This document shows positions 5,983-28,118 of a stretch of 31,106 bases of DNA, one piece after another. Both the position numbers and the translations under genes were made by a program. The notes beneath the pieces are model-generated. The model ran no database searches. It saw only the letters and a list, made by a program, of their open reading frames with translations, and was not told where the DNA came from. Within the stretch, counting starts at the first letter, position 1. Each line of letters starts with the position of its first letter. The stretch is from positions 1 to 31,106 of the IMG/VR virus record IMGVR_UViG_3300033993_002103; one strand, 5' to 3'. This stretch comes from a virus.

Positions 5983-7608
5983 CTAGCTGACGTATCCAGT
6001 GACGAAGGCCGTGTCGCCGCTGGAGTTGCACGCCACCCCAAAGCAGTCCACCGCTTCGCCAAGGTCGAAACCTTCCTCGATGAGTCCTGTTGCCGGGTCG
6101 ATGAACCAGATTAGGGCGTTGTTTCCGCTCGCCCCGAGCCAAGTGCTGTTCCGCTTCCCGCCGACGACGAGAAGGCCCGTGCCCGCGTTGTAAGCGATGG
6201 CGTGCTGGTTGAGCACCGGGCCCACGTTGGTCTGCCAGATCGGAGCGCCGTCGCTCCCTCGCAGCTTGTGGATGGCGTAGTCCGACTGGTTCTTCCTGCC
6301 GCCCACGTAGATGTCCCCGCTCGGATCGACCGCAATCGCGTCCGCCGTCGGATGCGGGTCGGTCGGGCTGTTGTCCGCGTTGGCCGGCGTCGGGATGTCG
6401 TTGTAGTACGTGCCCCACGAGCCGCTGTACGAGTCGGTCCTGCTGGTGAAGTCCGTCTCCCACGCGAGGGCTGCGGTCGTCGTGCCGGCGCTGATCTTTG
6501 CCACCGCACGGGCCGCCACGCTCGAATCGGGTGCAAACGTGCTGTTCGGCCCCCACCCCTTGTTGCAAGTCGCAAGGAAGAGGCTGGAGTCCGAGCCCGC
6601 GGCGATGCTGTTGACGTACTTGCCCCGCGGCTGGCTGGCAATGTGCTCAGAGAGCCGGAAGTAGGTGTGATCCTCGTAGTAGGTGTAGGCGTTGGTCTTC
6701 TTCGCCCCATACTGGAGGAGGGCGAGCATGGTGTCGTTGACCGCCGTGAGCGTTGAATCCACGTCAAAGAGCATGACGCCAGCGCGGAAGTGGCTTCCCT
6801 CGCCGTTGCCGTTGCCCGTGTCCGCGATCATCGTCGTGACCGGCCCCGTGACCACGTTGGAGCCACGGAAGGCCACCGCGAGGCGTCCATCGGGCCTGAC
6901 AATCGCCCGCATAACCTCTTCCGCCCACCCCGAGAGGTTGAACCGCTTGAGATACACCCCGTCGGAAGTGCGGAGCACGAAGACCCACGGGCCCGCGGCG
7001 ACGAACGTGAACACGTCCCCCACCGCGACCGAGTTGGCGTAGATGTCAAACGAGCCCAGTGCGCCGCCCGGATCTTGGTCAACCAGGTCGGTTGTCCAAA
7101 GGGCGGTCTGGAACGTCGCCGAGGTCGGATCGAAGTCGATCATCCGCACGCGGCTTCCAATCCTGCCCGAAATGGGGACAATGGAGACGAACGCGCACCG
7201 CTTCAGGGTCGGGTGCCAGTCCAGCGAGAAGCCGCCGTAGAGCGTCCCCGCACCAAAGTTGCCCCGGATGCCGCGCTGAGAGTCGAGCACCCAAAGGCTG
7301 CCCGTGATGGGGCCAGCCTCGACACTCACGCCAGCGCCAAGGGCGTTGGACGTGCCCGCCTCATACCCAGAAACGCCGCTCGCGCGACCGACCACGGCAA
7401 GGGCTTGGACCTTTGCACCTTGGCCAAGCTGTGTCTGGAACGCCTTGGAGAGCGACGGGCGCGGACCGAACCGAGGCCGGTTCACTGGGTCCGAGCCGAA
7501 AACGCGGACATTCCGAAGGTTCTCCTGTGGGGAGAACATCTCCGGCGTGTCCAGCGTCGTCGTGTTGTTGGCCGCACCCCGGAGGGGCGGTGCCAATCTC
7601 CGAGGCAT
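5983..7608 (-). CDS. Propeller-like structural protein of the tail region (541 aa)
   Basis: 541 aa, ATG at 7608 with AAGGA upstream. It contains repeated short beta units typical of WD/PQQ-like propellers: DAIAVDPSGDIYVGG, HAIAYNAGTGLLVVGGKRN, GVACNSSGDTAFVTGYV, SIAAGSDSSLFLATCNKG and SVAVGDVFTFVAAG. Such propellers occur in phage tail and host-recognition proteins as binding scaffolds; catalytic function is not implied. The N-terminus (MPRRLAPPLRGAANNTTTL, then PEMFSPQENLRNVRVFG) is extended and lacks a signal peptide. It follows the 223-aa virion protein by 18 nt and precedes the 200-aa protein by 14 nt. Function is inferred from fold and position only. Confidence 0.65.
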   Translation of the reverse strand: MPRRLAPPLRGAANNTTTLDTPEMFSPQENLRNVRVFGSDPVNRPRFGPRPSLSKAFQTQLGQGAKVQALAVVGRASGVSGYEAGTSNALGAGVSVEAGPITGSLWVLDSQRGIRGNFGAGTLYGGFSLDWHPTLKRCAFVSIVPISGRIGSRVRMIDFDPTSATFQTALWTTDLVDQDPGGALGSFDIYANSVAVGDVFTFVAAGPWVFVLRTSDGVYLKRFNLSGWAEEVMRAIVRPDGRLAVAFRGSNVVTGPVTTMIADTGNGNGEGSHFRAGVMLFDVDSTLTAVNDTMLALLQYGAKKTNAYTYYEDHTYFRLSEHIASQPRGKYVNSIAAGSDSSLFLATCNKGWGPNSTFAPDSSVAARAVAKISAGTTTAALAWETDFTSRTDSYSGSWGTYYNDIPTPANADNSPTDPHPTADAIAVDPSGDIYVGGRKNQSDYAIHKLRGSDGAPIWQTNVGPVLNQHAIAYNAGTGLLVVGGKRNSTWLGASGNNALIWFIDPATGLIEEGFDLGEAVDCFGVACNSSGDTAFVTGYVS

Positions 7609-7626
7609 GGCGATTTCCTTCCGGGT

Positions 7627-8298
7627 TTACGCGCGCATCGCGGGCGTGCGGAGCGTGGCGTGACGGAGGTACTTGATCTTCGTGGCGATCATCTGGATCT
7701 CAAGAGCGGTGCCGACCGCCTCGTTGGGGTAAAGCTGGATGGCGACGCTCTCAGAGCCGTCGAGGGCCGCAAGCTGGGCGGCGGTCATGGCGCCAGTGAT
7801 GTCGAAGTCGCGCCAGACAAACCCCTCCTCGTCAGCCTCGGCAAAGTCGGCCGCGCCAATCACGACCGAGACGGGCGTGCCAAGGGTCGCAAGGGCCGTT
7901 GCCCCGTCCTTGTGCCAGAATGCCTGACAGGTCAGGGCAAGGTCGGCGTTGGGAGATGCCGATCCGGAGGTATCGCGGAGACGGCACTTGACGCGGAGGA
8001 TCAGCTTAGGGTTGGCGTTGCGACCATTGCCGCCGTTGCGCTGGATGGCAAACTGGTTCGGGAGGCAGGTGTCGAGGCGGATGATGTCGGTGGCATCGGC
8101 GGTTGCGTTCCACGCGAGCGACATGAGGCTTGTGGCCGCAGCAGCAACGCCAACGATGCCGGCGCCGGTCGCAACCGGGATCAGGCCCGTGTTGAGACGC
8201 CACGCGCTGAGCGGAATGGGAAGCTCCTCGAAGTACGCGCCGTCGTCGGAAACGCTCTGGTCGATGACCGTGTTGATCGTGAGTGGGGATGCGCCCAT
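7627..8298 (-). CDS. Beta-rich virion protein of unknown function (223 aa)
   Basis: 223 aa from the ATG at 8298, with AGGAG upstream. The sequence (ELPIPLSAWRLNTGLIPVAT, FAIQRNGGNGRNANPKLILR, SESVAIQLYPNEAVGTALEI, QMIATKIKYLRHATLR) predicts a compact beta sandwich. An internal segment, GFVWRDFDITGAMTAAQLAA, reads like a jelly-roll strand pair. No named family recognised. The neighbours are the tail adaptor gene upstream and the propeller-like gene downstream, so a tail or fibre-attachment role is the simplest reading. Confidence 0.6.
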   Translation of the reverse strand: MGASPLTINTVIDQSVSDDGAYFEELPIPLSAWRLNTGLIPVATGAGIVGVAAAATSLMSLAWNATADATDIIRLDTCLPNQFAIQRNGGNGRNANPKLILRVKCRLRDTSGSASPNADLALTCQAFWHKDGATALATLGTPVSVVIGAADFAEADEEGFVWRDFDITGAMTAAQLAALDGSESVAIQLYPNEAVGTALEIQMIATKIKYLRHATLRTPAMRA

Positions 8299-23349: not shown

Positions 23350-23423
23350 TAGCAGGGGGCGGATTTGAACCGACGACCTTTCGGTTATGAGCCGAACGAG
23401 CTACCAGACTGCTCTACCCTGCT
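23350..23423 (-). tRNA. tRNA-Met (anticodon CAT)
   Basis: A 74-nt cloverleaf on the minus strand: acceptor AGCAGGG/CCCTGCT, D-stem GAGC/GCTC with GG in the loop, anticodon stem TTCGG/CCGAA around CTCATAA (anticodon CAT, T33 and A37 present), five-nt variable loop, T-arm GTCGG-TTCAAAT-CCGCC with one mismatch, then A73. CCA is not encoded. The A1:T72 pair and the lack of three G:C pairs in the anticodon stem disfavour an initiator. Elongator Met or a lysidine-modified Ile tRNA both remain possible. Confidence 0.93.
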
Positions 23424-26630: not shown

Positions 26631-26866
26631 CCCTCGCGTGGCCTTGTCGGTCGCGCGAGGGATTGGACAGGGCAGCGCAGGCCATGTCGGGGCTGGGTGG
26701 GGCATGGTTCGGTGGAGCATGGCAAGGCGACATCTCGCTCGGTTGAAAGACCGGGCGGGGGATTCATGGTCTGGAGTGCCGAGGTCGGGCATGGTGATGC
26801 GCGGAGCGGACGGGTCTGGACTGGCGGGGCATGGATCTCGCCTCATCGGGAAACCGACGGGGCGGG
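26631..26866 (+). repeat. GGNNN-pentamer / GAAA-hairpin array, upstream block (3 units)
   Basis: Hairpins at 26631-26661 (13 pairs, loop TTGTC), 26733-26760 (GGTT-GAAA-GACC core) and 26837-26866 (TCGG-GAAA-CCGA core, one A/C mismatch) start 102-104 nt apart. Between them are pentamer runs in constant five-nt phase: 26671-26730 (12 pentamers, 8 starting GG) and 26768-26837 (14 pentamers, 12 starting GG). Tails after the stems are ATTGG, ATTC and TTTGC. The GNRA loop and G-rich runs are on the plus strand, the strand of the surrounding message. Translated ORFs across it are Gly/Arg-rich artefacts. The block ends 63 nt before the 205-aa gene. Confidence 0.85.
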
Positions 26867-26929
26867 TTTGCGAAGGGTGACGCACAACGGCCAACTTCGG
26901 CCAACACCAATCACCCAAAGGGAGTTCTC

Positions 26930-27547
26930 ATGGCTACGGCAGTTGCACTCGGCGGCGACGTTACGAACCTTGGTGCAGAGACCTACGCGGCGTCCATGCC
27001 GTACCGGGCTCGCGTGGAGATCACGGGATGCGCGGACATCCTTCTCCACCGCTGGTCGTGTGACGCGGTGGAAGCGAAGTCCAAGGCGGCGAAGGGGAGC
27101 AAGGCGAAGAAGTCCGACGACCTTGAGTCCTACGTCTACCGCAACGAGGATGGCGAGATTTGCTTGCCCGGCGAGTACCTTCGGCAGTCGATCATGGCCG
27201 CGGCGAAGTTCCGCCAAGATCCTCGCTCACCGCGCAAGTCCGCGCGTGACCTTGTGTCGGCGGCGCTGATCCCGCTCACCAACCTCGCGTCGCTCGGCAA
27301 GCTCACTTGGGACTACGAGGACCGCCGCCGCGTGCGCGTCCAGCAGAACGCGATCACTCGCGTCCGCCCGGCGATCCGCATGGGCTGGACTGTTGAGGTC
27401 GATTTCATGGTGACGCTGCCCGAGTACGTGTCGGTGGAGATGTTGCAGGGGATGGTGGTTGACGCTGGACGACTGATCGGCGTCGGCGACTTCCGCCCCA
27501 CGTTCGGGCGGTTCAACATGACCGGGTTTGAGATGATTGACTCCTGA
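26930..27547 (+). CDS. Conserved-type phage protein with RAMP-like glycine-rich C-terminus, flanked by repeat arrays
   Basis: 205 aa; ATG at 26930 set by AAAGGGAG upstream. Key segments are ITGCADILLHRW (31-42), a Lys/Ala-rich insert (46-61), LPGEYLRQSIMAAAK (79-93), DRRRVRVQ (121-128), VRPAIRMGW (145-153) and IGVGDFRPTFGRF (183-195). The order 'beta strand - LxHR / LPGEYLRxS / G-x-GDFRPxFGRF' recurs, to my knowledge, in a family of phage proteins of unknown function. The LPGxxLRxx helix start and the final G-rich loop are reminiscent of RAMP (Cas5/Cas7-like) RNA-binding folds. That resemblance is my inference and needs structure comparison. Arrays of GGNNN pentamers and hairpins begin five nt after its stop and end 63 nt before its start, which suggests a functional link. 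Confidence 0.75.
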   Translation: MATAVALGGDVTNLGAETYAASMPYRARVEITGCADILLHRWSCDAVEAKSKAAKGSKAKKSDDLESYVYRNEDGEICLPGEYLRQSIMAAAKFRQDPRSPRKSARDLVSAALIPLTNLASLGKLTWDYEDRRRVRVQQNAITRVRPAIRMGWTVEVDFMVTLPEYVSVEMLQGMVVDAGRLIGVGDFRPTFGRFNMTGFEMIDS

Positions 27548-27551
27548 TCTG

Positions 27552-28118
27552 GGTTGGGCTCGGAGTGGCTTGGTGGGGCGAGGCCGGGCACGGTGTGGCT
27601 GGGCCTGGTCTGGAGTGGCAAGGAACCCCACGTTCGGGAAACCGTGCGTGGGGGATTGCGGTCCGGCGCGGTTGGGAGTGCTGGGGTCAGGCCCGGCGCG
27701 GTCTGGGATGGTCAGGCGCGGAGCGGCAGGGCAAGGGCTACCGGGTGGCGGAAACGCTGCCCGGAGCATTCAGGGCGCGGTCAGGTGTGGCTCGGCATGG
27801 AAGGGCAAGGCGCGGTCGGGTGTGGCGCGTTGCGGCAAGGAATCACGGGCGACGGAAACGCCGCCTGTGATGTTTCGGATGTGGATTGGCGTGGTTTGGC
27901 GAGTCGGGCTGAGGCAAGCTGCGGCGCGGCGAGGTGCGGAATCCCGCTCGGTTTAACAGCCGGGCGGGGTGTTTAGGCATGGCGCGGTCGTGTCGGGTTT
28001 GGTGAGGCAGGGCATGTCCAGGCGAGGCGCGGTGCGGCATGGAACCGCCCCGTCGGGAAACCGATCGGGCGGGATTGAACTACGCCGCACTGTCCCGTGG
28101 CTGAGTAGGTCGCGGGAC
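27552..28118 (+). repeat. GGNNN-pentamer / GAAA-hairpin array, downstream block (6 hairpins)
   Basis: Hairpins: 27626-27653 (loop GAAA), 27741-27764 (GAAA), 27843-27870 (GAAA, one A/C mismatch), 27943-27968 (loop TTTAACA-like), 28045-28072 (GAAA, one C/C mismatch), 28092-28118 (five-nt loop, resembles the first upstream unit). Pentamer runs: 27552-27626 (15 of 15 start GG), 27660-27739 (15 of 16), 27774-27843 (13 of 14), 27883-27942 (9 of 12), 27976-28045 (12 of 14). Phase never slips within a run, and the last pentamer (GGAAC, GGAAT) merges into the stem. Unit period is 100-115 nt. The stems differ but pair, so structure is conserved over sequence. No gene can be supported here; high GC ORFs in this span are Gly/Arg-rich artefacts. 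Confidence 0.88.

Follow-up and report, generated by a model that had tools for sequence, protein, structure and literature searches.

GGYNN repeats flanking a Vipr-family gene: evidence for a VIPR locus in a virus that probably infects Phycisphaerales

What is encoded by the runs of five-nucleotide repeats that alternate with hairpins at positions 26631–28118 of an uncultivated viral genome? The window analysed here is the entire IMG/VR virus record (31,106 bases, GC 65%). The initial annotation of this array proposed a structured transcript, or a loading platform for a protein that contacts five nucleotides per protomer, perhaps linked to recombination or replication, and knew of no system that would explain it. 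Our reading, to which we assign a probability of about 95%, is that the window belongs to a tailed phage, probably one infecting Phycisphaerales, and carries a VIPR locus whose guides would bind the DNA of rivals and block transcription there.

VIPR (Viral Interference Programmable Repeat) is defined by the protein Vipr together with GGY/NN guide RNAs, and was described in a 2026 preprint (April–June 2026; PMC13142463) with experiments in E. coli and Pseudomonas phage systems. Vipr is RAMP-like, an ancestral RAMP with an RRM core and a G-loop; the guides, called vrRNAs, consist of 9–16 YNNGG repeats, of which the NN positions are hypervariable, and a 3' tail (PMC13142463). VIPR is an RNA-guided form of DNA recognition acting on competing mobile elements: the NN pairs are read and one target base is skipped, transcription is repressed, and targets lie in satellites and prophages (PMC13142463). 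Seven types are distinguished, the loci typically carry an accessory vap gene, and viruses appear to use VIPR as a weapon that silences the genes of rival viruses (PMC13142463).

The array of the window contains seven GGYNN runs, all on the + strand and in intergenic DNA, and is split by a gene of 618 bp (26930–27547, + strand) which the initial annotation left unnamed and which is referred to below as vipr. Two runs are found upstream of it, U1 (26666–26730; 13 units, 8 with GG, degenerate) and U2 (26768–26837; 14 units, 12 with GG), and five downstream, namely D1 (27552–27626; GG in 15 of 15), D2 (27660–27739; 16 units, 15 with GG), D3 (27774–27843; 14 units, 13 with GG), D4 (27883–27942; 12 units, 9 with GG) and D5 (27976–28045; 14 units, 12 with GG). 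The GG phase is thus weaker in the first and the sixth run. A recount and block shuffles confirmed what had been noticed first, that is, seven runs of 12–16 pentamers with a five-nucleotide phase within each, including the perfect D1; in the best stretch GG occupies 12 of 12 pentamers at the five-nucleotide step, compared with a maximum of 8 of 12 in 100 block-shuffled copies of the window. The third pentamer position, overlooked earlier, is mostly a pyrimidine (GGYNN). The phase is exact inside each run and shifts by 2–4 nt across every hairpin, so each run is a separate unit. The regular spacing also stands: loop-to-loop distances between neighbours are about 100–105 nt, with one exception of 113 nt. 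Near-identical direct repeats with unique spacers, as in CRISPR arrays, are not present; a repeat search of the array found degenerate pentamer similarity only.

Nine hairpins accompany the runs, six of them with GAAA loops, as the initial annotation had counted. The opening hairpin (26631–26661, + strand; 13-bp arms, 85% complementary) has no preceding pentamer run. The tails with a GAAA loop are those of U1 (26733–26760; 12 of 13 positions paired), U2 (26838–26865), D1 (27626–27653), D2 (27739–27766), D3 (27843–27870) and D5 (28045–28072), all six covered by the GAAA-anchored pairing test, and the tail of D4 (27941–27970) is a predicted fold with another loop; all are on the + strand. The closing hairpin (28092–28118, + strand), read from the sequence and lacking a pentamer run, is possibly the transcript end. 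The pairing test used 13 tails of the window and of its relatives in Phycisphaerales, anchored on GAAA and selected by loop position and not by pairing. Over 13 positions the stems pair at 88% in register and at 34–43% when slid by one or two, several pair types occur at nearly every stem position, and 11 of 13 pairs are attained at none of the 636 GAAA sites elsewhere in these loci. The tail is a covarying 12-bp hairpin, followed by ATT/TTT, and corresponds to the structured 3' tail of VIPR guides; the earlier claim that selection acts on the pairing is supported by this covariation. Judged by eye, a hairpin also seems to precede each pentamer run in Silverhawkium (L009; 4280–4845 and 5870–6260), like the opening hairpin of the window.

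The gene inside the array encodes a protein of 205 amino acids (phrog_4652, where no function is named), and no Pfam model covers it. The product is a Vipr-family RAMP, a relative of the SUSP1 Vipr protein. When the PDB was searched with the family profile, which itself contains a SUSP1-like homologue, a single chain was found, 36pp_D, 'SUSP1 Vipr protein' (E 2.5e-66); the window protein alone also matches this chain (phmmer, E 9.3e-7), at an identity to the SUSP1-like protein of only 26%. Its AlphaFold model (pLDDT 89, pTM 0.81) has type VII Cas7 and Csm3 as top Foldseek matches (E 8.5e-8), and this resemblance identifies the window protein as a RAMP; 36pp is absent among the Foldseek matches listed (library to April 2026). 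The conserved motif of the clade is G-x-G-D-F-R-P-x-x-G-R-F. A RAMP encoded within the array is a candidate for the protein which had been proposed to contact five nucleotides per protomer. Since a Vipr-family protein and GGY/NN guides define VIPR, the locus is a member of it.

Relatives of vipr were drawn from IMG/VR, named phages and bacterial genomes. Phased arrays adjoin vipr in 75 of 79 related IMG/VR viral loci, nearly all on the strand of vipr, in the named phages DSL-LC04, Medea1 and Silverhawkium, and at 26 of the 31 loci in bacterial genomes; none was present in eight control viral contigs fetched by unrelated pattern matches. Across 112 non-redundant loci, 266 of 269 runs share the strand of vipr. 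The base frequencies over 5759 pentamers (G 0.96, G 0.89, C/T 0.92, the two N near-even) are not an unbiased estimate, because the segmentation that found the runs looks for GGY. The clade logo is G G Y N N, and intergenic same-strand vrRNAs flank vipr in the clade as in the window. The initial annotation had been staked on homologous arrays in related phages with a non-random GG phase: the arrays recur and the phase is kept. The membership of the window in VIPR rests on the protein family, the array, its strand and phase, the covariation of the tails and the clade-level skip code presented below. The window locus and about 100 relatives extend VIPR to phages of Planctomycetota and other phyla.

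Two loci with unusual arrays were also seen. One vipr-bearing contig (L058) has a single unbroken phased run of 176 pentamers (6928–7803, about 880 nt) with no hairpin, far above 9–16 units; arrays of staggered or overlapping form are described in PMC13142463, and this may be one of them. A cyanobacterial contig of Stenomitos rutilans (JAHHIE010000002.1; L113 and L114) carries two vipr copies with no detectable GG-phased arrays, and the repeats there may follow another consensus.

The closest described system is VIPR type II of Escherichia phage SUSP1 (PMC13142463; PDB 36pp). The two share a phage-borne Vipr-family RAMP, tandem GGY/NN repeats (9–16 units), vrRNAs on both sides of vipr, a structured 3' tail and the 1-nt-skip code, here tested on the relatives of the window. 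They differ in protein identity (about 26%, against the SUSP1-like homologue), in the tail (a 12-bp hairpin, mostly GAAA-capped, in the window and a pseudoknot in the SUSP1 clade), in the number of vrRNAs (seven in the window, four in SUSP1) and in the surroundings, as the window has no recognised vap and its neighbours are ordinary replication genes. With the Cas7 backbone of class 1 CRISPR-Cas (Csm3, type VII Cas7) the locus shares the RAMP fold and subunits placed along a guide RNA at a fixed step. However, CRISPR repeats are absent from the window, no other cas genes were recognised among the scanned proteins, and the step is a 5-nt repeat, whereas in class 1 CRISPR-Cas the spacer is free and the step 6 nt. 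TIGR-Tas (PMC12045711) likewise combines a tandem array of guides, carried by phages, with a protein of its own; the window protein is a RAMP matching Vipr and not Tas.

Whether the NN positions spell targets was assessed at the level of the clade, with 1080 windows of twelve NN against 2.5 million strand-bases of collected sequence, arrays masked, and a threshold of at least 20 of 24 matching bases. A skip of one base gave 242 matches against 8 with order-shuffled guides; the other skips were near background (real/shuffled: skip 0, 9/13; skip 2, 7/8; skip 3, 19/9). The 1-nt-skip rule thus holds for the clade, recovered from sequence alone and independently of the data of the preprint. Rival phages' vipr genes make up many of the targets detected in the clade: 96 of the 242 skip-1 matches fall in vipr genes of other loci, a share inflated by a searched set that consists mostly of vipr loci, which leaves the contrast between skip lengths unaffected. 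Because vipr was the starting point of the sampling, the counts demonstrate a working code and place rival VIPR phages among the targets, but they are no measure of how frequent each target is in nature. In 96 of 96 matches within vipr genes the skipped base is codon position 3; the 96 originate from six guides in five loci and, since hits on one conserved site across many homologues depend on each other, amount to six guides. None of these six attains the threshold against the vipr beside its own array. Being written in codon phase, the guides would not be evaded by synonymous changes. A helicase motif (VIPTGGGKTPVI) is also hit repeatedly, as is an AlpA-like helix-turn-helix (HTH) gene in one locus (L117), which is matched by guides from five other loci. 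Among single guides, those of L084 at 5876 and 6651–6666 match vipr in codon phase at 40 and 14 other loci, as though directed against the core that all rival vipr genes conserve, and a guide of L031 at 951 spells the C-terminal end of a rival vipr together with its stop codon (FQVTRFEVLDE*, 22/24).

Searches of the collections with the guides of the window itself covered U2, D1, D2, D3 and D5, U1 and D4 being left out because of their weak phase; exact or near-exact targets were not found with these five. Their exact 9-NN patterns gave no matches or chance-like ones only in IMG/VR, the 11-NN pattern of U2 had no match in genome contigs, and at 3 mismatches there was none for D1 in 248 genomes (class of a Phycisphaeraceae bacterium) or for D2 and D3 in 161 genomes (order of a Phycisphaeraceae bacterium). 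The guides of the window gave nothing above background on the window itself. A match of D5 to L129, extending to 10 NN, was rejected as it reads as a common coiled-coil. Decoded by the xNN rule, U2 gives LV[DE]R[IM][DE]AARLLG[IM]S, the shape of an excisionase/AlpA-type HTH, and it alone of the decoded peptides had a sub-threshold Pfam match (HTH_8, E 0.15). In 301 genomes (order of a Phycisphaeraceae bacterium) U2 has two sites at 25/28, both in HTH genes of this type ('LLVDRREAARLLGVS' and 'LLVDRREAARMLGVS'), and the reversed pattern, searched as a control, has 0 matches. These two best matches, with 3 mismatches of 28 within a common HTH motif in Phycisphaerales genomes, are a lead to the target family; from them we infer that U2 would aim at an excisionase/AlpA-type regulator gene.

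Expression, binding and repression at the window locus are taken by analogy from PMC13142463, as follows. Seven vrRNAs of about 100 nt would be produced, each with 12–16 GGYNN repeats and a 3' hairpin tail, and one pentamer, held at the GGY, is expected per Vipr subunit. The free NN pair would read DNA, one target base being skipped between pairs (xNN), and the loaded complex would bind the DNA of rival phages or mobile elements where it matches, and block transcription. More tentatively, and in our view less likely than not, the phages of Phycisphaerales may have a VIPR subtype of their own that works without vap. Its tails, and perhaps its processing signals, would be the covarying hairpins with GAAA caps, and its targets excisionase/AlpA-type regulators and the vipr genes of rival VIPR phages.

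That no exact targets were found for its own guides would also suit a once-active VIPR in decay, whose guides, U1 (8/13 GG) and D4 (9/12 GG) especially, have ceased to act as their GG phase erodes. We regard this as unlikely: vipr is intact with the conserved residues of the clade present, five of the seven runs are well phased, and a second assembled virus contig (L004) has an identical array. Less likely still is a binding platform of RNA or ssDNA for a RAMP filament, serving regulation of its own operon or the packaging and organisation of nucleic acid and targeting no DNA; the array does flank vipr and would be co-transcribed with it, and the window's guides have no targets found, but the NN positions of the clade yield matches to rival genes, in codon phase and well in excess of shuffles, which a pure platform would not need, and targeting has been demonstrated for SUSP1 VIPR (PMC13142463). 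Chance or low-complexity G-rich sequence, which the GC content of 65% might suggest, has a negligible probability, as shuffles never attain the observed phasing, phages with as little as 39% GC (Silverhawkium, L009) also have the arrays next to vipr, and the skip-1 matches far outnumber the shuffled ones.

The VIPR reading retains the essence of the initial interpretation (a structured transcript, here a vrRNA array with covarying tail hairpins, selection on pairing and a protein expected to contact five nucleotides per subunit) and departs from it in two respects: array and protein match a known system (PMC13142463), and the link to recombination or replication falls. The replication genes next to the array are of the kind usual among early genes of phages. 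A loading role in either process was dropped after the Vipr match. Downstream of the array the window encodes a replication initiation protein, a DnaC-like loader and a DNA methylase; in the relatives the downstream ORFs vary (RusA-type resolvase-, helicase- or RecT-type-like, from translations judged by eye). No conserved adjacent accessory gene was seen in the window or the clade, and hence no vap was identified. Ranked by E-value, the first ten relatives from bacterial genomes are without exception MAGs of Phycisphaerales or Phycisphaerae, which suggests the host; the tailed phage probably infects Phycisphaerales (Planctomycetota).

Rfam gave nothing above threshold in the array, the matches to whalefall-1 (E 0.11) and NEAT1 (E 7) being noise, and with no Rfam ribozyme in the window the hammerhead-interspersed VIPR array subtype was not found there. 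Ribozymes are present on two vipr-bearing contigs of the relatives: a Hammerhead_II (L058, 3582–3648; 51.9 bits, above the gathering score) about 3 kb from the array, and a Type-P5 twister (L041, 3413–3489, minus strand; 40 bits). The sole tRNA of the virus record is a tRNA-Met (anticodon cat) at 23350–23423 on the minus strand.
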